A stretch of DNA of 64,000 nt from Balneola sp. EhC07 (GTDB lineage Bacteria; Bacteroidota; Rhodothermia; Balneolales; Balneolaceae): the NCBI RefSeq assembly GCF_001650905.1, contig NZ_LXYG01000018.1:124001-188000 (forward strand), written 5' to 3'. The first letter of the stretch is position 1. Each line of letters begins with the position of its first letter. Shown here in pieces: positions 22,751 through 31,981 of this stretch. The translations under genes and the position numbers were made by a program. A model generated the notes under the pieces. The model was not told the DNA's origin. It worked only from the letters and a program-made list of their open reading frames with translations, and searched no databases.

Positions 22751-22972
22751 TTTTTCTTTGATCATGATCTCTTAACTTTTGTCATTTCGACCGGAGGGAG
22801 AAATCTGAAGTTCGTTAACAAAGCCGCGAGCATTTAAACTGCAGTAGAGTTTTGATACAATCTTCAAGTAAACATGCAAGGGCTTCAGTCCACAGTGCCT
22901 GAAGTTAGTTAGGTAAGCTATAAGGAGCAGGAGTTCCTATTTTGCCTTCCCAAACAGAAATTTGGGAAGGTG
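22751..22972. repeat. ~220-bp intergenic repeat, copy 1
   Basis: Imperfect copy of the sequence at 23850-24076. Shared landmarks are the ATTTCGACCGGAGGGAGAAA box at the left, a CTTCAG/CTGAAG hairpin, GTTAGGTAAGCTAT, and a CTTCCCAAA/TTTGGGAAG hairpin at the right. It lies just 3' of the lipoprotein gene at 23019-23669, and the final hairpin may end its transcript. Confidence 0.75.
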
Positions 22973-23018
22973 ATTGGATTTCAAAAAAAATATGTCTCAG
23001 AAATCTAAAAAACTATAA

Positions 23019-23669: not shown

Positions 23670-24111
23670 AATAAAAGCATTTGTAGTTCAAATTTTAAAT
23701 AGAAAAGCTCCGGAAAACCAATCTAATAACCCGTAGAAGAAACTTATCACTTGTATACGAGACCAATACAGGGATTACCTATTAATTAACAATGATTTGT
23801 AAAAAAATGCAAGGAGTTTAAATGAAAGGAATACCCGGGATTCAGTTTATTTTTCTTTGATCATTATCTCTTAACCTTTTGTCATTTCGACGGGAGGGAG
23901 AAATCTAAAAATATATTACAAAGACAAGGGTGTTTAAAACTGGATAAAGTTTGATACAAATTCTTTTAAAGTAAACAAGCAAAGACTTCAGTCCGCAGTG
24001 CCTGAAGTAAGTTAGGTAAGCTATTGGGAGCAGGAGCTCCTCCTATGCCTTCCCAAGAAAGAACTTGGGAAGGAGGTTAAATTCTTCAACAGCGTTCTAG
24101 AAATTTACAAG
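23670..24111. other. Intergenic region holding repeat copy 2
   Basis: 442 bp with no gene. The left part is plain AT-rich sequence; the right half is the second copy of the ~220-bp repeat. Confidence 0.6.
23850..24076. repeat. ~220-bp intergenic repeat, copy 2
   Basis: Matches 22751-22972 with scattered differences. Hairpins CTTCAG/CTGAAG, GGAG/CTCC and CTTCCCAAG/CTTGGGAAG are preserved despite base changes, which suggests the folded structure matters. It lies just 3' of the lipoprotein gene at 24112-24732. Confidence 0.75.
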
Positions 24112-24732
24112 CTATCCTCCGTTTCCTGAAATATGGTGCTCTAGCATCTGGTTACCGTCATCCCAAGCGGGACCATCCCAAAAACGTATATCATTTACAT
24201 TATATTTATATCTGCTTTCTCCTGCTCTATTTTTAAGAGTTTTCAAATCATAAAAATATAAATCTTTCATTTTATCAGAAATTTCCCCGTAGGATGAATA
24301 GTAATTTAGATTGATAATTATGAACCAATCTATACTCCAAGGTGAGTTCAAAGAATCTCTATTTCCTAAAAATGCTCTAGCATTATAGTGAATCCCTTCT
24401 GGATTTTCGGTTAAGTGCACTGACTGATTCGTGTTCTCAGTTACTACGATTAAGAATGATTGTAACAACTCCGGGCTATACAGAATCGTGTCTATAGAAA
24501 CTTTCTGTGTTTGTTGAAATCTTTGTGGAAAGAAAGGCCCCTCTTTTTTGACAATTAACGAATCTACTAAATCAGTCAATGATTCTAAATCACTTTGATA
24601 TAAAGAATCTTGAACAGACGACTTGTATTTAAATTCTTTTGGTGTTGCTCTTTCACCATTACACCCTGATAAGGTAATAGCTGAAATAGATATCGCAACG
24701 ATTAAATATATTACTCTGGTAAAATTTTGCAT
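24112..24732 (-). CDS. Hypothetical lipoprotein
   Basis: 206 residues with a lipoprotein signal (hydrophobic near residues 7-21, ITLSGC). No domain recognised. Its start lies 72 bases beyond the outermost attC site of the cassette array, in the same orientation as the cassettes. It could therefore be the terminal cassette, but no attC follows it; a ~220-bp repeat does instead. Confidence 0.7.
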   Translation of the reverse strand: MQNFTRVIYLIVAISISAITLSGCNGERATPKEFKYKSSVQDSLYQSDLESLTDLVDSLIVKKEGPFFPQRFQQTQKVSIDTILYSPELLQSFLIVVTENTNQSVHLTENPEGIHYNARAFLGNRDSLNSPWSIDWFIIINLNYYSSYGEISDKMKDLYFYDLKTLKNRAGESRYKYNVNDIRFWDGPAWDDGNQMLEHHISGNGG

Positions 24733-24804
24733 GGAATGTATTTCAGGAGAAACAGGGCCTATATATATTCTGTAAACTAAGTTTTACATATAAAGGGTGA
24801 TGAC

Positions 24805-24917
24805 GTTTAACGACCCGGCGGTTAAGCGGCACGTTACAATTTAAGGTTTTAGTTAAAAGCTACAAACGAGCATGCGCTGAACTTGATTCAGTGTCCGACT
24901 TGAAACGCTTGTTATAC
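24805..24917 (-). repeat. attC site A
   Basis: 113 bp. Minus-strand R'' GTATAAC at 24911-24917, L'' AAGCGTTTCAAG, L' GCCGCTTAACC, and R' GTTAAAC (24805-24811), a perfect GTTRRRY. The best-preserved site. Its middle is nearly identical to site C. Confidence 0.85.
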
Positions 24918-24919
24918 GT

Positions 24920-25159
24920 TTAGTTCCAAAGGTCATTTTCAGGATCAAAGTCATTAAGACAAATATCTTTTTCATCTATATCAAAAGAAACAGCTTGATT
25001 TAACATCGTATTTATAATACTTGTATAAGCAGCTAAATAGCCTTCTCTATATTCCTTGCCGTCTGCCTCAGGATTTTGATACTCATTTTTGGCTTCAAGG
25101 GCTCTTTCTTTAATGAGAAAACCCAAGTCTCTTAAATACAAACGATGTTTATCACTCAT
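24920..25159 (-). CDS. Cassette 1: small cytosolic protein of unknown function
   Basis: 79 residues, acidic C-terminus (DIDEKDICLNDFDPENDLW), no signal or membrane segment. It resembles a widespread uncharacterised family of ~80-residue proteins (LGFLLKERALEAK...GYLxAY) that I recall from proteobacteria. The stop codon lies 2 bases from the R'' box of attC A, which is typical of a cassette gene. Confidence 0.75.
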   Translation of the reverse strand: MSDKHRLYLRDLGFLIKERALEAKNEYQNPEADGKEYREGYLAAYTSIINTMLNQAVSFDIDEKDICLNDFDPENDLWN

Positions 25160-25176
25160 GAGGTAATTTGTTAAAC

Positions 25177-25303
25177 GTATAACGACCCTGCGTTTAAGCG
25201 GTGAGGGTTTTCGGTTTTTCTGAAAGTAACCAAATTAATTACTTAGCTGAAAGTTAAATTATGCGAAGCCAATACCCGAGTCCGATTTAAAACGCTTGTG
25301 AGT
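25177..25303 (-). repeat. attC site B (R'' degenerate)
   Basis: About 127 bp. R' is GTTATAC (25177-25183) on the minus strand, and L' is CCGCTTAAACGC. L'' AAGCGTTTTAAA is recognisable, but R'' reads AACTCAC rather than xxxTAAC. The stop codon of cassette 2 lies inside the site. Confidence 0.75.
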
Positions 25304-25889
25304 TGGCTGATGGCCTTCGCAAAGTGATAAAGTGTATTGCATAAATCAAACGCTCTCGTTCTTTTTCAATATCTAATTTCTCTGGAAATAGAAGCATGTT
25401 GGCATTCATACTTGGAGTAATTAATCCACCATGCTCTAATGTATCATAGTATTCAAATAGAAAATCATTCTTTTTAGAAGCTGTTTTCAAAAAAGCTGCA
25501 TAATTTCCCGAAGATCGAAGGTCTCTAAAAAAAGTTGAATCAGCAGTTCTGGAATCATGAGCATAACCTGTATACCAAAGCTTTTGTTGAAATGAATCGG
25601 GCAGTGTTGAAAAGAGCCTTTGATATTTTTTTTGATCAAGCTCTATTGCAATCACAGGACCGGATTTTACAGAATCCTTAACAACTTGAAAGAGCTCTTT
25701 ATAGCTGGGAATAATTTCAATGTCGGGTGTCTGATTAATTACTTCATTATCAAAGAACGTTAAAATTGAATCGAGATAAGCTATTTCAGATTCCGAAAAA
25801 TGCTTCTGAACAATAGGATCTTCTTCCAGAGAAATTGGCCCACAAGAGTAGAGCAATAGGAATAGAGATATTGAAAGAAGTTTTCTCAT
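25287..25889 (-). CDS. Cassette 2: hypothetical lipoprotein
   Basis: Start set at 25889 (200 residues), because MRKLLSISLFLLLYSC forms a lipoprotein signal. The longer frame upstream runs into attC C and lacks signal features. No domain recognised; the mature part is acidic. The last residues (ANSQAF) are encoded by attC B itself, so the site's left arm doubles as coding sequence. Confidence 0.75.
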   Translation of the reverse strand: MRKLLSISLFLLLYSCGPISLEEDPIVQKHFSESEIAYLDSILTFFDNEVINQTPDIEIIPSYKELFQVVKDSVKSGPVIAIELDQKKYQRLFSTLPDSFQQKLWYTGYAHDSRTADSTFFRDLRSSGNYAAFLKTASKKNDFLFEYYDTLEHGGLITPSMNANMLLFPEKLDIEKERERLIYAIHFITLRRPSANSQAF

Positions 25890-25900
25890 GTGGTTAAGCC

Positions 25901-26012
25901 CACTAACGACCCGGCGGTTAAGCGACACGTTACAATTTAAGGTTTTAATTAAAAGCCACAAACGAGCATGCGATGAACTTGATTCAGTATTTGCATAAAA
26001 ATCTAGTTAGTA
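25901..26012 (-). repeat. attC site C (L'' lost)
   Basis: R' GTTAGTG at 25901-25907, L' and the palindromic middle are nearly identical to site A. The L'' arm, however, is replaced by unrelated AT-rich sequence. A TAAC-type R'' remains at 26006-26012. Probably no longer recombination-proficient. Confidence 0.7.
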
Positions 26013-26019
26013 TCACGAT

Positions 26020-26851
26020 TTAGTGTTTAAAGTAAGTGTGCTTTTTATGCCATTGCAATTCTTCTTTATGGTTAAAAAGTTCTATCACACTTATCCTCCC
26101 CAGATTGTCATATTCAATTTTACGTTTATTATTGTTCACATTGAAAGCAACATTATCAGCTAATTCCTCAGGGCCTGATTCGAGAATTTTGCTAATAAGT
26201 TTTCCATCCTCATTATAGCGATATGTAATAAACCTATATTGTTTATCATTCCAATATTCAATTTTTCTAAGTAAGTCATTCGAGTTATAGAAGTATAAAC
26301 CTGTCCATTCTGTATCAGAATTTATTTTTTGGAACTCCTTTTTGATCAAGTCATCTTCATATTCATAGAAACTCCATTTTTCAAATTTTTCTTTAGTGTG
26401 GTAATTCATACCTCTATCTGTCAGTTCATGAGTGAGTTGGTTATCTGAATTATAGAACTTAGTCTGTATAAAATCGGCAGTATCTACATTTACTAAACTA
26501 TCAGTGGTAGTGTAAGACCCAATATTGTTGCCTGAGTTGTCATAAATCAATAATTCTCTTATTCCAAACTCACAATTATACATTCTACATCGGAAAACTT
26601 CTTTTAAAACACCAAGGGAATCGTATTTGAACTTATTCCTAGATTCATAACCTACAGACTCTACTAACTTTTCATTAGCATTATAATATTTGTAAGAATC
26701 TCCAGAGTGACCGTTCTCGAAAGTAGTCACAATTTTTAGGCCATAATCGTATTCAATCATTTGGCTAGAATCTGGAGTGGAATAATCAGGCTCACAAGAA
26801 GTACAGACAAAAAAAAAGTGTTATGAATAGAACTGGAATAATATATTTCAT
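26020..26851 (-). pseudogene. Cassette 3: YD-repeat-like lipoprotein, frameshifted at a T9 tract
   Basis: The intact downstream frame (26020-26760, 246 residues) has repeated KYY-, EYDNLGR-, YRYNEDGK-like units similar to YD/RHS-type repeats. It lacks any signal sequence. Directly upstream in another frame, an ATG at 26851 with an AAAGGAAA ribosome-binding site opens a lipoprotein signal that stops after 19 codons. Removing one T from the nine-T run at 26809-26817 (plus-strand As) joins the two and creates the lipobox VCTSC just before the mature part. It may be phase-variable, a recent null mutation or a sequencing error. Confidence 0.75.
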
Positions 26852-26870
26852 TTTCCTTTGTAAGTTAGAA

Positions 26871-26927
26871 CAACTATCGACCCCGCTGTTAAGCGGCGAG
26901 TATGGTTATAATTGATGAAATGTTATT
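26871..26927 (-). repeat. attC site D remnant
   Basis: Only the L' arm is clear (minus-strand CGCCGCTTAACAGCGGGGTCG). The R' box is mutated (ATAGTT instead of GTTAxxx) and no L'' or R'' arm is found before cassette 4. Decayed site. Confidence 0.55.
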
Positions 26928-26977: not shown

Positions 26978-27430
26978 TTACCTAATTGGTTTTGGCATTG
27001 AATCTTTTCTTGCTAGAATTGAATCTATTAAAAACATAGATTCAAATCCTAAAGGTCCTTCAAGGGTGCCCAAAAACCACAACGAATCATCTGGCATTGC
27101 ATTATTGTAAGAAAAATCAAATCGGCCAAGCGAGTCAGTAACTCCTAATATTTGATAAGGTCTTTTCGGAGAATTTGTTATGTAAACAGTAACTCCTTGA
27201 ACAGTTCTATTGCAATACAGGTCAAATGCATAGCCTTTTATCCGAAGAGAATCTGAATACACGGTAGATGTCTGATCTTCAAAAATTATTTGTTCATTCC
27301 AGTTGCTATCAAACTGATCATAACCGATACCGTAATAATTTGAGCATATTTGTGATTTAAATATAGAACAGGATGCTGTTAAACATACAGTTGTGAGAAT
27401 AAAAATGAAGGGTGATAATCTATGTTTCAA
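26978..27430 (-). CDS. Cassette 4: lipoprotein with a carboxypeptidase-regulatory-like domain
   Basis: 150 residues with a lipoprotein signal (TTVCLTASC). The segment RIKGYAFDLYCNRTVQGVTV ... GVTDSLGRFDFSY resembles the small beta-sandwich CarboxypepD-reg-like fold, common in surface proteins of this phylum. Function unknown. Bounded by decayed attC sites D and E. Confidence 0.7.
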   Translation of the reverse strand: MKHRLSPFIFILTTVCLTASCSIFKSQICSNYYGIGYDQFDSNWNEQIIFEDQTSTVYSDSLRIKGYAFDLYCNRTVQGVTVYITNSPKRPYQILGVTDSLGRFDFSYNNAMPDDSLWFLGTLEGPLGFESMFLIDSILARKDSMPKPIR

Positions 27431-27465: not shown

Positions 27466-27500
27466 TGAACGAACGACTCCGCTTGAAACGCTTGTTATGT
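27466..27500 (-). repeat. attC site E, half site
   Basis: The R'' (ACATAAC, 27494-27500) and L'' (AAGCGTTTCAAGCGGAGTCG on the minus strand) arms are intact. The L'-R' half is missing, replaced by AT-rich sequence up to the start of cassette 4. Confidence 0.65.
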
Positions 27501-27506
27501 TTGACT

Positions 27507-27785
27507 TTAAAAACCAAAGATATTTTTTTTGTGTTTTTTACTGTAACTATACAGCCATTTTTTAATTTCTAAAACACGTTCAACTTCTTCGTTTGTAATG
27601 AAGTTTAAACCAATGTCATTAAAACTGCCCATTCCACCATAAGCTCCGAGAACTTTTTTATAAGATTTATTTTTCTCTCCAGAATTGTACAAATAAAGAG
27701 CTTCGGTAAAATAATTTGCCCAGTGGTTTTCACTTGATTGTAAAAGTAAGGAAATCAATTCTTCAAGTTGTTGATCGTATTTCAT
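27507..27785 (-). CDS. Cassette 5: small cytosolic protein with GGMGSFND motif
   Basis: 92 residues, no signal. The YGGMGSFNDIGL motif and helical N-terminus suggest, from memory, the family annotated DUF6966, which is uncharacterised. The basic tail ends SKKHKKNIFGF. The stop lies 7 bases from the R'' of attC E, and the start 13 bases from R' of attC F. Confidence 0.75.
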   Translation of the reverse strand: MKYDQQLEELISLLLQSSENHWANYFTEALYLYNSGEKNKSYKKVLGAYGGMGSFNDIGLNFITNEEVERVLEIKKWLYSYSKKHKKNIFGF

Positions 27786-27797
27786 TACTAGAGTTGA

Positions 27798-27903
27798 ACA
27801 TAACGACCCTGCGTTTAAACGGCGAGTCGAGTTTTAGTTATTAAAGTTTCGAACCAGCCTGCCCCGAGCATTCGGGGAGTCCGAATTGAAACGCTTGTTA
27901 GTT
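27798..27903 (-). repeat. attC site F
   Basis: 106 bp and complete. R'' at 27897-27903, R' GTTATGT at 27798-27804, and an internal CCCGA/TCGGG hairpin. The middle is nearly identical to site G. Confidence 0.85.
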
Positions 27904-27929
27904 TGCCGGTTGCGAAATTTACATGGATT

Positions 27930-28397
27930 TTATGTATGATTCTCTAAGAATTTTTTTACTAATTCAGCAAGTTTGTCTTCAGGATCTTCAATACAATCTT
28001 TAAGATCAATCTCAGCATTGTATTCTCGCTTTAGATTACTTTGTCTTTGTTTCCATGTTAACTCGAGCTCCTTTAAAGCTAAATTTCCAATAGTTTTTAC
28101 GCTTTGTAGCTCGTTCTTTTTTGTTTCCCAATATTCTTTTGGGAGTGAAATAACACTGAAAAGTAGAAACTCTGGATAAACATAACTTTTAGCTAAAGGA
28201 GAATCTTTAAGTCGATCTAAAGTGATCGGTAATAAAATGTCAGTTCCTTCATTTTCACCAATCATGAACCTTAAGTCTTCAATTGTAAAATCATCAATAG
28301 GCTTTTTACGAAGCTCATGAGTTTTTAAGACAAAACTTGCTGGATAAGTTGGGTCATCCCAAAAATCGTTTTCTAAAGCTTCTATAGTTTTACTCAT
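27930..28397 (-). CDS. Cassette 6: CdiI_2-like contact-dependent inhibition immunity protein
   Basis: Start set at 28397 (155 residues, MSKTIEALENDFW); the upstream ATG would place the start against the recombination box. The block TIEALENDFWDDP...LKTHELRKKPIDDFTIEDLRFMIG...LPITLDRLKDSPLAKSYVYPEFLL matches the CDI immunity family I know as CdiI_2. Such proteins bind and neutralise the toxin domain of a CdiA effector from neighbouring cells. No CdiA, RHS or other toxin gene is in the window, so it is an orphan immunity gene carried as a cassette. It is cytosolic. Confidence 0.82.
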   Translation of the reverse strand: MSKTIEALENDFWDDPTYPASFVLKTHELRKKPIDDFTIEDLRFMIGENEGTDILLPITLDRLKDSPLAKSYVYPEFLLFSVISLPKEYWETKKNELQSVKTIGNLALKELELTWKQRQSNLKREYNAEIDLKDCIEDPEDKLAELVKKFLENHT

Positions 28398-28407
28398 AAT
28401 GAAGGCA

Positions 28408-28512
28408 AACAAACGGGCCAGCGTTTAAGCGGCGAGTCGAGTTTTAGTTATTAAAGTTCCGAACCAGCCTGCCCCGAGCATTAGGGGAGTCCACTTGAAA
28501 CGCTTGTTATAT
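28408..28512 (-). repeat. attC site G
   Basis: 105 bp. R'' ATATAAC at 28506-28512 and L'' AAGCGTTTCAAG are intact. R' reads GTTTGTT, and the box ACGAC next to it has diverged. The middle matches site F. Confidence 0.8.
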
Positions 28513-28519
28513 GGATGTT

Positions 28520-29188
28520 TTAATTTAATATGAATTTGACGCGAACACTTCTGCGAATTGTAACTTTACCAAAATCATTTTCTTCTTTTGAATTTTCTGT
28601 CGTCACAGAATTAAATGGAATAGAGTATGATGACCAAGAAGAGTTTTCTTCAATTTCGAGTACTTCTCCAAGGCTCATTTCATAAACTTTAGCCATGTAA
28701 GAGGCTTTGGTCTTAGCTAATTGAAGAGCTTTTTCATAGGCTAATTGATGTTGGTGTTCATAATCAGAGATTTTATAGCTCGATTGAATTTTTTCGATTG
28801 AATTATTTAAAACAAAAGCATCAGTTAGTTCTGTATAAAGATTCAAATCCTGTAAAAGAACCGATAGATTGACTTGAACATAAAATCCTTCTTGTTGCCT
28901 TTGGTTATTAACGTATGTGTAATTCTTCCCAATAGTGATAGGAGACACATTAATATCTGTTTGAGATATTCCAATATCAGTTAATTGCTTAAGGAGATTA
29001 TCCAGTTTTTGAGTGTTCACATTTTTAGCTTCCTCAACAGTTTCCAGAACTGTTTTTAATTGAATAGAAAAGCTAACCCGATCAGCAGGGAGAACAGACT
29101 CATATGTACCATTTACTTCGATATATCTTACTTGACTGTATGTGGTTACAGAAAAGGTTAACAGGAAGCATAAAAAAAGATATTTCAT
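28520..29188 (-). CDS. Cassette 7: SIMPL-domain (DUF541) secreted protein
   Basis: Start set at 29188 (222 residues, MKYLFLCFLLTFSVTTYSQ), preceded by GAGAGA. It has a signal peptide, then a SIMPL/DUF541 domain. Characteristic parts are IEVNGTYESVLPADRVSFSIQLKT, the DIGISQTDINVSPI strand and the RRSVRVKFIL end. The family forms periplasmic ring-like oligomers of uncertain role (BP26-like). The stop lies 7 bases from the attC G R'' box. Confidence 0.85.
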   Translation of the reverse strand: MKYLFLCFLLTFSVTTYSQVRYIEVNGTYESVLPADRVSFSIQLKTVLETVEEAKNVNTQKLDNLLKQLTDIGISQTDINVSPITIGKNYTYVNNQRQQEGFYVQVNLSVLLQDLNLYTELTDAFVLNNSIEKIQSSYKISDYEHQHQLAYEKALQLAKTKASYMAKVYEMSLGEVLEIEENSSWSSYSIPFNSVTTENSKEENDFGKVTIRRSVRVKFILN

Positions 29189-29211
29189 TAATTCTCTCAT
29201 TAAGGTGAATA

Positions 29212-29231
29212 CACATAACGCTTGTTATGTG
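29212..29231. repeat. attC site H, collapsed to a 20-bp palindrome
   Basis: Only CACATAAC, GCTT and GTTATGTG remain, so the outer R boxes flank a 4-base loop. The junction fits deletion between the two AACG repeats that border the middle of normal sites (TAACGACC and AAACGCTTG). Confidence 0.8.
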
Positions 29232-29244
29232 CAAATAGGTATTT

Positions 29245-29796
29245 TTATTCTTTGATTTTATAGTGAACTGATATTTCATTTAAAATCTTTTGCTCCTTTC
29301 CTTTGAGACTAAAACTTATTCCAGAGCTATATAGATTATAAGTTAAGCTGTCTTCAGATACATAATCATACTTAGAAACCTCAGGAAAGAATGAATCTAT
29401 CTTTGGATTGAACTGCCCAAGAAATAAAGTTTCTGAGAATTTTGCGAAATAGCTATCTGAAACTGAAATTCGAATCCATTTTAGTTTTAAATCTTTTTCT
29501 GTTTCTCCTTCGTAGTCAAAATTGATACCCAAAAACTTCAACTCTCTCGTAACAAAAGCTTCGCAAAAAAATTCACCTGTATCTAAATTTACTCCGCTTA
29601 CCGTGGCATAGCCTAACGGAGGAAGTTCATTAATTTCCAAAAGATTCATTGTTTCTTCAATGGTTGTCTTATTAATGAATATTGTATCTGATTTGATAAC
29701 CAAACCTCTCCCTGGTAAAACAGAAAGACTATCAATTTGAGCAAAAGCCGAAACAGGAACTAAAAAAACAAAAGCAATAAATTTGAATCTCAACAT
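29245..29796 (-). CDS. Cassette 8: hypothetical secreted protein
   Basis: Start set at 29796 (183 residues), because MLRFKFIAFVFLVPVSAFAQ is a clean signal peptide with an AFAQ cleavage site. An upstream ATG would overlap the recombination box. The mature protein is acidic and beta-rich; no domain recognised. The end lies 13 bases from the collapsed attC H. Confidence 0.75.
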   Translation of the reverse strand: MLRFKFIAFVFLVPVSAFAQIDSLSVLPGRGLVIKSDTIFINKTTIEETMNLLEINELPPLGYATVSGVNLDTGEFFCEAFVTRELKFLGINFDYEGETEKDLKLKWIRISVSDSYFAKFSETLFLGQFNPKIDSFFPEVSKYDYVSEDSLTYNLYSSGISFSLKGKEQKILNEISVHYKIKE

Positions 29797-29813
29797 CTGA
29801 AGTATGACTTTGC

Positions 29814-29903
29814 ACATAACGACCCCGCGTTTAAGCGGCGAGTCTGGGGTTTAAAATTAAAGACCCGAACCGCGTTCGAGTCCGCTTGAAACGCTTGTTA
29901 TAT
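29814..29903 (-). repeat. attC site I
   Basis: 90 bp, the shortest complete site. R'' ATATAAC at 29897-29903, L'' AAGCGTTTCAAGCGGACTCG, L' GACTCGCCGCTTAAACGC, R' GTTATGT (29814-29820). L'' and L' pair over about 9 bases with a bulged base, as in functional attC folds. Confidence 0.87.
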
Positions 29904-29904
29904 G

Positions 29905-30360
29905 TTACCAGAATTTCCACCAAGGTTTTTCAGCTTTTCTTTGGGTCTTAGTTAAAATCCCAGTTTGGTATCGATCTTCAAGTACAGCAGAATATTCTTT
30001 AAAATCATGTTCACTTTCCGGTGCTACGTAAATTAAATGTCCAAAGTGTTTTACATAATCATCAAAATATAATCCATCATCACCGTAATATTGACTAGCG
30101 AAGTCATTACCAAATTCATCGAAGTCCTCATCAGTTAGCTTTCCGTCACAGTACTTTAAGAAAAATTCAGTTGCTGAAAGCTTATCATTTAATAAAAGTT
30201 CTAGATCTTCAGATTGTCTTTCATCTTTATGTAGTTCTCCAATCCATCCTTTAAGAAAGCACCATTTTAAGAATAGAGCTATATGAGTTGCTCCATATTC
30301 AGAGGGTGAATCTTTTGGAAATTCTCCTCCAGAATGCCATTCTGCATCATCATATTTCAT
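29905..30360 (-). CDS. Cassette 9: small acidic protein, immunity-like family
   Basis: Start set at 30360 (MKYDDAEWHSGGEFP, 151 residues), 9 bases after the R' box; the upstream frame would read through that box. The pattern KYDDAEWHSGG...P...GATHIALFLKW...LLNDKLSATEFFLKYCDGKLTDEDF resembles, from memory, a family of cytosolic proteins (annotated DUF7832) seen in polymorphic-toxin immunity loci. Function unproven. The C-terminus ends WWKFW. It is the cassette furthest upstream in the array. Confidence 0.78.
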   Translation of the reverse strand: MKYDDAEWHSGGEFPKDSPSEYGATHIALFLKWCFLKGWIGELHKDERQSEDLELLLNDKLSATEFFLKYCDGKLTDEDFDEFGNDFASQYYGDDGLYFDDYVKHFGHLIYVAPESEHDFKEYSAVLEDRYQTGILTKTQRKAEKPWWKFW

Positions 30361-30369
30361 AGTTGTAAC

Positions 30370-30376
30370 ATATAAC
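30370..30376 (-). other. Outermost recombination box, proximal end of the array
   Basis: Minus-strand GTTATAT, like the R' boxes of the attC sites, but with no L' arm beside it. It could be the scar of an attI or attC site. Beyond it, a 124-bp spacer leads to the carotenoid desaturase gene instead of an integrase. Confidence 0.5.
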
Positions 30377-30514
30377 ATGATATTATCCAAACAAGGATTT
30401 TCCTTGCTTGTCCCGATAAAATCTAAAAATTGACTCTAAAATACTAGTAAACAATGAAGTCAGGATTTTATCATGATGAAAATGGTTTCTAAAATTCCTG
30501 AATAAGTCCCAAAC

Positions 30515-31981
30515 TCACTCGAATCTTTCTATCAACTCCACCGCATTAACCGCACTTTGTATCACCAATGGAATGCCGCCACCGGGATGAGTGGAGCCGC
30601 CTGTAAAGTACAAACCTTCAATTTCACGGGATTTGTTTCTGGGTCGAAGAAAAGCAGAGAATTTATCGTTGGATGAAGTTCCATAAATACTGCCTTTGTT
30701 GGAAAGGTATTTTTCATAAAAATTCTTTGGGGTGATCTCTGAACGGAATTTAATATGCTGCGAAAGATCGGCCAAACCTCGGTTTTCTAATTCCCTTATC
30801 ACCTTATCTCCATAATTAATATCACTCCAATCATAAGAATCACTCAAATAAGGAGCATTCACCAATACAAATAAATTGGAGCCATCTTCGGGAGCGTGAT
30901 CTTTATCAGTGAAAGAAGTATTAGCGATGTAAATGGTCGGATCGTCGGGCATGATCTTATTTTCAAAGATCTGTTTGAATTCCAGTTCATAATCAGCGGA
31001 AAAGAAAATGTTGTGATGAATGAGCTGCTCGTATTTTTTGTCGATACCCAATAGCATCACAAAACCGGAACAGGAGGGTTCTAATTCTTTTTGTTTCTCT
31101 TTTCGTTTCGCTGAAATACTGAACTCGTCAATTAAATTCAGAATGGTTTCTGAAGCATCACTGTTGGCAACCACAAGATCACATTCCATCAACTCTCCGG
31201 ATTCGGTTTCCACTCCTTTAATTTTGCCTTCCAAAACATGAATACGGTCTACTTTTGCATTGTATTCAATAGAAGCACCCAAAGAGATCGCCAGATCACG
31301 TAAACATTCTGCAACTCTGTATAATCCGCCTTTGATGTAATAGCCGCCTTCATTCAGTTCGATATGGGGAATCACATTCAGCGTAGCCGGAGCCTGATAA
31401 GGAGAAGAGCCGTTGTAGGTAGTAAAGCGTTTAAAGAACTGTTGCAGGTATGGAGATTCGAAATAGGAGTCGACACGTTTACTGACCGTTGTAAAGGCGT
31501 CGATCCCTAAAAAAGAAAACAGATTGAGGTTTTTCAGATCCGAAAAGTTGTATAGTGGATTCAATACAAAGGCATTCCGAGTCTTTTTGTCCAGGGACTC
31601 AGCATATTCCAAAAATTTGATGTAGGACTTCTCATCAGCAGGAGCCATTCTGCGGATCTCTCTCAACATCTGCGCACGGTCGCTGTAATTATCGAACTGC
31701 ATTCCATCCTGAAAGAAATACCGGCAGTTTATATCCAGTGGAACCATTTTAAGCTCTTTTGAGAGGGAAGTGCCACAATCCTGCAGCAATCCGTCCAGAA
31801 TATAAGGCATGGTAAACAGGGAAGGACCGGTATCAAATCGAAATCCATTTGCCGTGATCTCATTCATCTTGCCGCCCACGCTGTCGTTCTTTTCCAGAAT
31901 GGTTACTGAATGACCTTGTTTGGCAAGCAAACAACCTGCGGATAATCCTCCGATTCCTGCTCCGATTATGATTATATTCAT
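30515..31981 (-). CDS. CrtI-family carotenoid desaturase
   Basis: 488 residues. The N-terminal FAD-binding motif is GAGIGGLSAGCLLAKQGHSVTILEKNDSVGG, and the C-terminal signature GGSTHPGGGIPLVIQSA is the CrtI/CrtN/CrtD hallmark. FRFDTGPSLFTMP near residues 48-60 resembles 1-hydroxycarotenoid 3,4-desaturases (CrtD) of Bacteroidota as much as phytoene desaturases, so I do not assign a symbol. It implies pigmented cells. No other carotenoid gene is nearby. It is the gene directly upstream of the cassette array. Confidence 0.85.
   Translation of the reverse strand: MNIIIIGAGIGGLSAGCLLAKQGHSVTILEKNDSVGGKMNEITANGFRFDTGPSLFTMPYILDGLLQDCGTSLSKELKMVPLDINCRYFFQDGMQFDNYSDRAQMLREIRRMAPADEKSYIKFLEYAESLDKKTRNAFVLNPLYNFSDLKNLNLFSFLGIDAFTTVSKRVDSYFESPYLQQFFKRFTTYNGSSPYQAPATLNVIPHIELNEGGYYIKGGLYRVAECLRDLAISLGASIEYNAKVDRIHVLEGKIKGVETESGELMECDLVVANSDASETILNLIDEFSISAKRKEKQKELEPSCSGFVMLLGIDKKYEQLIHHNIFFSADYELEFKQIFENKIMPDDPTIYIANTSFTDKDHAPEDGSNLFVLVNAPYLSDSYDWSDINYGDKVIRELENRGLADLSQHIKFRSEITPKNFYEKYLSNKGSIYGTSSNDKFSAFLRPRNKSREIEGLYFTGGSTHPGGGIPLVIQSAVNAVELIERFE

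Follow-up and report, generated by a model that had tools for sequence, protein, structure and literature searches.

The window analysed here, a stretch of 64,000 nucleotides from Balneola sp. EhC07, holds beside a crtI-like gene an array of small genes and attC sites, one of whose genes codes for a protein resembling the immunity protein CdiI (Table 1).

Table 1. Features of the cassette array and its edges (window coordinates), ordered from the crtI-like gene to the far end.
Feature	Coordinates	Strand	Details
crtI-like flanking gene	30515..31981	minus	
DUF7832 (PF25191) gene, first of array	29905..30390	minus	E 1.3e-33
attC after DUF7832 gene, intact	29813..29905	minus	94.1 bits
Cassette protein with signal peptide, no family	29245..29817	minus	signal peptide judged by eye
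Collapsed attC remnant, R'' and R' boxes only	29212..29232	minus	12.4 bits and sequence
SIMPL (DUF541) cassette protein	28520..29200	minus	E 5.4e-27
attC of upstream (SIMPL) cassette, intact	28407..28514	minus	86 bits, E 4.3e-20
cdiI cassette	27804..28413	minus	610 bp, from G^TT cut in upstream attC to G^TT cut in own attC
cdiI-like gene	27930..28397	minus	155 aa, intact ORF; CdiI_3 (PF18616) domain at residues ~8-99
attC of cdiI cassette, intact	27797..27905	minus	90.5 bits, E 2.8e-21
DUF6966 cassette protein	27507..27785	minus	E 7.9e-16
attC 5' half	27467..27502	minus	remnant
Lipoprotein-like cassette gene	26978..27430	minus	75% identical relative at crtI locus of congener G002
attC 3' half	26871..26900	minus	remnant
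YD-repeat-like cassette protein	26020..26760	minus	68% identical relative among the cassettes of the IntI-linked array of congener G003
attC with decayed 5' half	25900..26014	minus	31.9 bits
Lipoprotein-like cassette gene	25287..25889	minus	
attC, intact	25176..25306	minus	69.3 bits
79-aa cassette protein	24920..25159	minus	66% identical relative at end of IntI-linked array of congener G007
attC, intact	24804..24919	minus	79.2 bits
Lipoprotein-like gene, far end beyond last attC	24112..24732	minus	

The cdiI-like protein matches the Pfam family CdiI_3 (PF18616) with an E-value of 5.3e-19 and 68.4 bits (cut-off 28), over positions 2-94 of the 95 of the model, and continues for some 55 residues at its C-terminus beyond this domain. 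The significant match to a CDI immunity family that had been predicted is thus borne out, albeit under another name: the CdiI_2 identity first proposed is ruled out, as PF18593 has no match in the whole genome. A further match is to the CdiI of E. coli UPEC536, crystallised in its toxin-bound form (PDB 5j5v_C), which the protein recovers weakly as a single sequence (E 0.019) and clearly as a profile of four members, that is, itself and three Bacteroidota relatives (E 8.6e-9); the kinship with the UPEC536 protein is therefore real. In these searches the query protein (27930-28394) lacked the first methionine, which did not affect the results. Judged by its sequence, the protein is a member of the CdiI_3 immunity family, of the UPEC536 type. 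It is small, predicted to be mostly helical and devoid of a signal peptide; its AlphaFold model is of too low confidence (pLDDT 65, pTM 0.50) for a comparison with the 5j5v fold, and a fold search with it gave no PDB match. The gene has a GC content of 32%, lower than the 39-40% of its flanks.

The cassette that carries this gene has an ordinary structure, namely a promoterless gene with its attC site tightly behind it. The ATG lies 16 nt after the start of the cassette, and the gene is followed by a site with R and L boxes, a stem and an extrahelical base, as is expected of an integron gene cassette. The sites were scored with R1, a covariance model built on 26 attC sites from the window array and from IntI-linked arrays of congeners, in whose stem 98% of the cells are paired and covariation exceeds that of shuffles. 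By this model the window has five intact sites and a decayed one, all of them on the minus strand; three remnants score near background and were identified by their sequence. In the collapsed remnant, CACATAACAAGCGTTATGTG, which is a perfect short palindrome, both L boxes and the loop are gone. As originally described, the cdiI-like gene lies between two near-identical attC sites, about 89-93% alike. The closest relative of the cassette's own site is found in another species (90%), and because that site is equally close, a recent duplication was rejected as the source of the likeness between the flanking sites.

With regard to the integron to which these cassettes would have belonged, nothing in the genome (3.62 Mb, 98.6% complete) matches the integrase model TIGR02249 above the cut-off, and the two best matches are without the IntI-specific patch region. 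The nearest recombinase found, about 55 kb away on the contig, looks like XerC/D and likewise does not match the patch region. A true IntI is present in six of the seven congeners and in 47 of 98 relatives. Since IntI is missing from a genome with 22 attC sites, distributed over several clusters, the window array, with its five intact sites, is a CALIN; it sits deep within a contig of 309 kb, flanked left and right by ordinary genes, and is therefore not a complete integron broken by assembly. The place itself is shared within the genus: in four congeners (G001, G002, G003 and G007; loci L102-L105) the orthologue of crtI, a carotenoid gene, is likewise followed directly by attC sites, which are absent from this position in G004, G005 and G006. 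The cassette genes at the congeners' crtI sites vary from species to species. Two other window cassettes, those of the YD-repeat-like and 79-aa proteins, have relatives in IntI-linked arrays of G003 and G007, and hence cassettes move within the genus, although the cdiI cassette itself has no relative there. The simplest reading would be that the crtI site is an old, shared cassette place that exchanges with IntI-linked arrays. Such a site, distant from any integrase and conserved in the genus, should be useful for the study of cassette gain and loss in CALINs.

Some other features of these arrays deserve mention. The YD-repeat-like gene seems to begin within a longer lipoprotein-like frame (26020-26870, minus strand); a frameshift, located in nine consecutive T, parts it from the upstream methionine and signal-like stretch of that frame. 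Decay, phase variation or an error of sequencing could account for this. The far end of the array has two related repeat blocks (22776-22980 and 23876-24083; 63 and 118 nt, about 80% alike), which differ in kind from attC sites and resemble interspersed repeats. The congeners' arrays, IntI-linked and other (alignments A2, A3 and A4), carry a CAP12/Pycsar-like TIR effector domain, CoiA-like proteins, PIN domains, many ParE-type toxins and one Imm58.

An immunity gene raises the question of its toxin. In a cdiBAI locus the immunity gene stands directly downstream of cdiA, whereas the neighbours of the cdiI-like gene are integron cassettes and, in agreement with the original prediction, no CdiA or RHS gene occurs among the ORFs around the array. 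The toxin domain that pairs with UPEC536 CdiI is Ntox28; the UPEC536 toxin is a CysK-activated tRNase (PMC5562914, PMC9086364). Ntox28 was not detected in the genome, which is weak evidence of absence because control genomes gave nothing either. Nor was Ntox28 found above the cut-off in 394 genomes of the phylum. A different origin would be that the cdiI-like gene is the displaced immunity gene of an RHS toxin of the same genome, which does have three RHS-repeat frames (2160, 1754 and 1532 aa) on other contigs. Their C-termini carry neither Ntox28 nor any firm toxin domain (one has a sub-threshold likeness to Ntox44, E 0.021), and two of the three are directly trailed by a small gene of their own, so that this origin is barely credible. 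A cognate toxin in the own genome was accordingly rejected for lack of Ntox28 and of any recognisable partner domain in the RHS C-termini. Giant RHS-repeat genes with variable C-termini were observed at L081:1437-7919 and L082:3094-12937 (contigs C16 and C10 of the same genome). What had been proposed, a CdiI-type immunity gene carried as a cassette with no toxin beside it, therefore holds at the level of the whole genome, in which no cognate toxin is recognisable and there is no second CdiI_3 gene.

The solitary state of the gene is shared by its relatives. CdiI_3 proteins are present in five of 394 phylum genomes and three of 92 family genomes (two of these being broken fragments), as well as on plasmids of Streptomyces and Spirosoma, and transposases often adjoin them. 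In none of 11 contexts (four Bacteroidota loci, one a broken fragment, and seven plasmid loci, judged by annotation or by reading of the ORFs) was a recognised toxin found less than about 5 kb from the CdiI_3 gene; members of this branch in Bacteroidota and on plasmids thus usually stand alone. Scans of genome_contigs and viral_contigs with the window protein found no relative, and the relative from Neolewinella aquimaris, used as query, retrieved its own record as the sole match. Such isolation allows a function unrelated to toxins, although orphan immunity fits it as well. In the former case, the CdiI_3 branch outside Proteobacteria would have another cellular role and its name would have been transferred from the UPEC536 protein, in line with the solitary gene in all 11 contexts, the low identity of the other relatives to the window protein (25-40%) and the weak single-sequence match to the solved CdiI. 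The patchy spread of the family, its presence on plasmids and the nearby transposases fit a mobile accessory gene instead, and the profile match to a toxin-bound CdiI is significant, which makes a role other than immunity decidedly unlikely.

Another possibility, suggested initially, is that the entire array serves as a dedicated bank of orphan immunity genes; it would then be the integron equivalent of a polyimmunity or rAID locus. The family search of the array proteins proposed at the time places one of the ten, the cdiI-like protein, in a named immunity family; the remainder are DUF7832, DUF6966, SIMPL, YD-repeat-like, several lipoprotein-like and unmatched proteins. Cassettes 1, 5 and 9, which had been thought immunity-like, correspond to DUF7832, DUF6966 and a protein with no match, respectively, and no polymorphic-toxin neighbour was seen among the few plasmid relatives of DUF7832 examined. 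Among the 144 proteins of genus and family cassettes that were scanned with Pfam, named immunity families are represented by two proteins, CdiI_3 and an Imm58 (1.8e-6), while toxins of the ParE, YoeB, PemK and Gp49 types number about ten; type II toxin-antitoxin toxins are thus several times commoner there than named immunity families, and lipoproteins and enzymes are also commoner. SUKH, the commonest immunity family of polymorphic toxins, is present in only three of 92 family genomes and never near an attC site. The idea does gain something from the clear immunity family in the array and the Imm58 elsewhere, and from the fact that cassette proteins are mostly small and of no known family: the majority of the 144 are without any match, and undescribed immunities could therefore be among them. 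Nevertheless, a bank of immunities was rejected on the basis of the Pfam scan, PADLOC and the SUKH search, and is regarded as highly improbable.

Taken together, the best explanation of the locus is probably that an integron cassette here carries an orphan immunity gene. A cdiI homologue of the UPEC536 type would have been captured as a promoterless cassette with an attC site of the genus type, and would now reside in the integrase-less array behind crtI. Given its leader of 16 nt, the gene depends on transcription that starts upstream, which might be read-through from crtI or begin at a promoter before the DUF7832 gene; a sigma-70 scan was uninformative for the array, as it returned fewer promoter-like sites than shuffles did. 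If expressed, the mostly helical cytosolic protein would be expected to bind the C-terminal domain of an incoming polymorphic toxin and block it, the target being, by homology, an RNase or tRNase of the Ntox28 type or a relative. Protection would then be directed at the toxin of a competitor and not at an own one. Neutralisation of a toxin by the protein is in this way suggested by its homology.

Alternatively, the cassette may be silent, because the 16-nt leader leaves no room for a promoter. According to this explanation, it would have no function today and would be left over from an integron whose integrase has been lost, kept in store without being expressed and decaying slowly. The lack of IntI in the genome and the presence of three attC remnants and a decayed site in the array are consistent with such decay, and so is the presence of quite different cassettes at the congeners' crtI sites, which means that no cassette content is conserved there. 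On the other hand, the cdiI ORF and both adjoining attC sites are intact, and the array genes lie downstream of crtI and on the same strand, so that read-through is possible. A silent passenger is considered unlikely, and an orphan immunity gene that might be expressed from upstream is preferred. A much broader proposal, which we hold to be doubtful, is that integrons of this Bacteroidota lineage circulate orphan immunities to contact toxins as cassettes, and that a lineage devoid of CDI gains protection by cassette capture, as a counterpart of rAID. If this were true, a large number of the small cassette proteins without a match would be undescribed immunities.

Several known systems bear comparison with this locus. 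The closest at the protein level is UPEC536 CdiI (PDB 5j5v, Pfam CdiI_3), with which the window protein shares the profile family, the small size, the predicted mostly helical nature and the lack of a signal peptide; it differs in belonging to another phylum, in its 155 aa with an added C-terminal stretch, and in being encoded in an integron cassette without cdiB or cdiA. Orphan CdiI genes are known downstream of cdi loci and in an islet of S. Typhi, which has no cdi locus (PMC9086364). They are immunity genes without a toxin, as in the window, but located at cdi loci or in genomic islets and not between attC sites. As for arrays, the rAID arrays of Bacteroidales hold orphan immunity genes and are tied to a tyrosine recombinase (PMC12247911). 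Both they and the window array have co-oriented small genes, conserved intergenic motifs, a tie to tyrosine recombinases and an orphan immunity gene; however, rAID loci have their own adjacent recombinase and mostly immunity genes, whereas the window array has true integron-type attC sites, no recombinase next to it and one immunity gene in ten. In polyimmunity loci, too, immunity genes are separate from toxins (Zhang et al., 2012, PMC3482391), but such genes are concentrated there, which is not the case in the window array. Nothing essential distinguishes the array from CALINs and sedentary chromosomal integrons (PMC9024848, PMC12444791), equally integrase-less attC arrays in a conserved chromosomal place, apart from its position behind crtI in this genus. 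Immunity-type cassettes have been listed before, as MccF in ACID (PMC2674596) and as 'immunity proteins' among cassette-encoded predictions (PMC11089894); these are cassette-borne like the window gene, although they are annotations only and are not stated to be of the CDI type. No description of an integron cassette with a CDI-type immunity gene was found in the literature, of which our coverage is incomplete. The cdiI cassette is thus a real but modest addition to the known orphan immunity genes, in an uncommon vehicle, and it brings integron cassettes together with orphan immunity genes, two subjects usually treated apart. Should the protein be functional, immunity to contact toxins would have in integrons a second way, in addition to rAID loci and genomic islets, of spreading free of the toxin.
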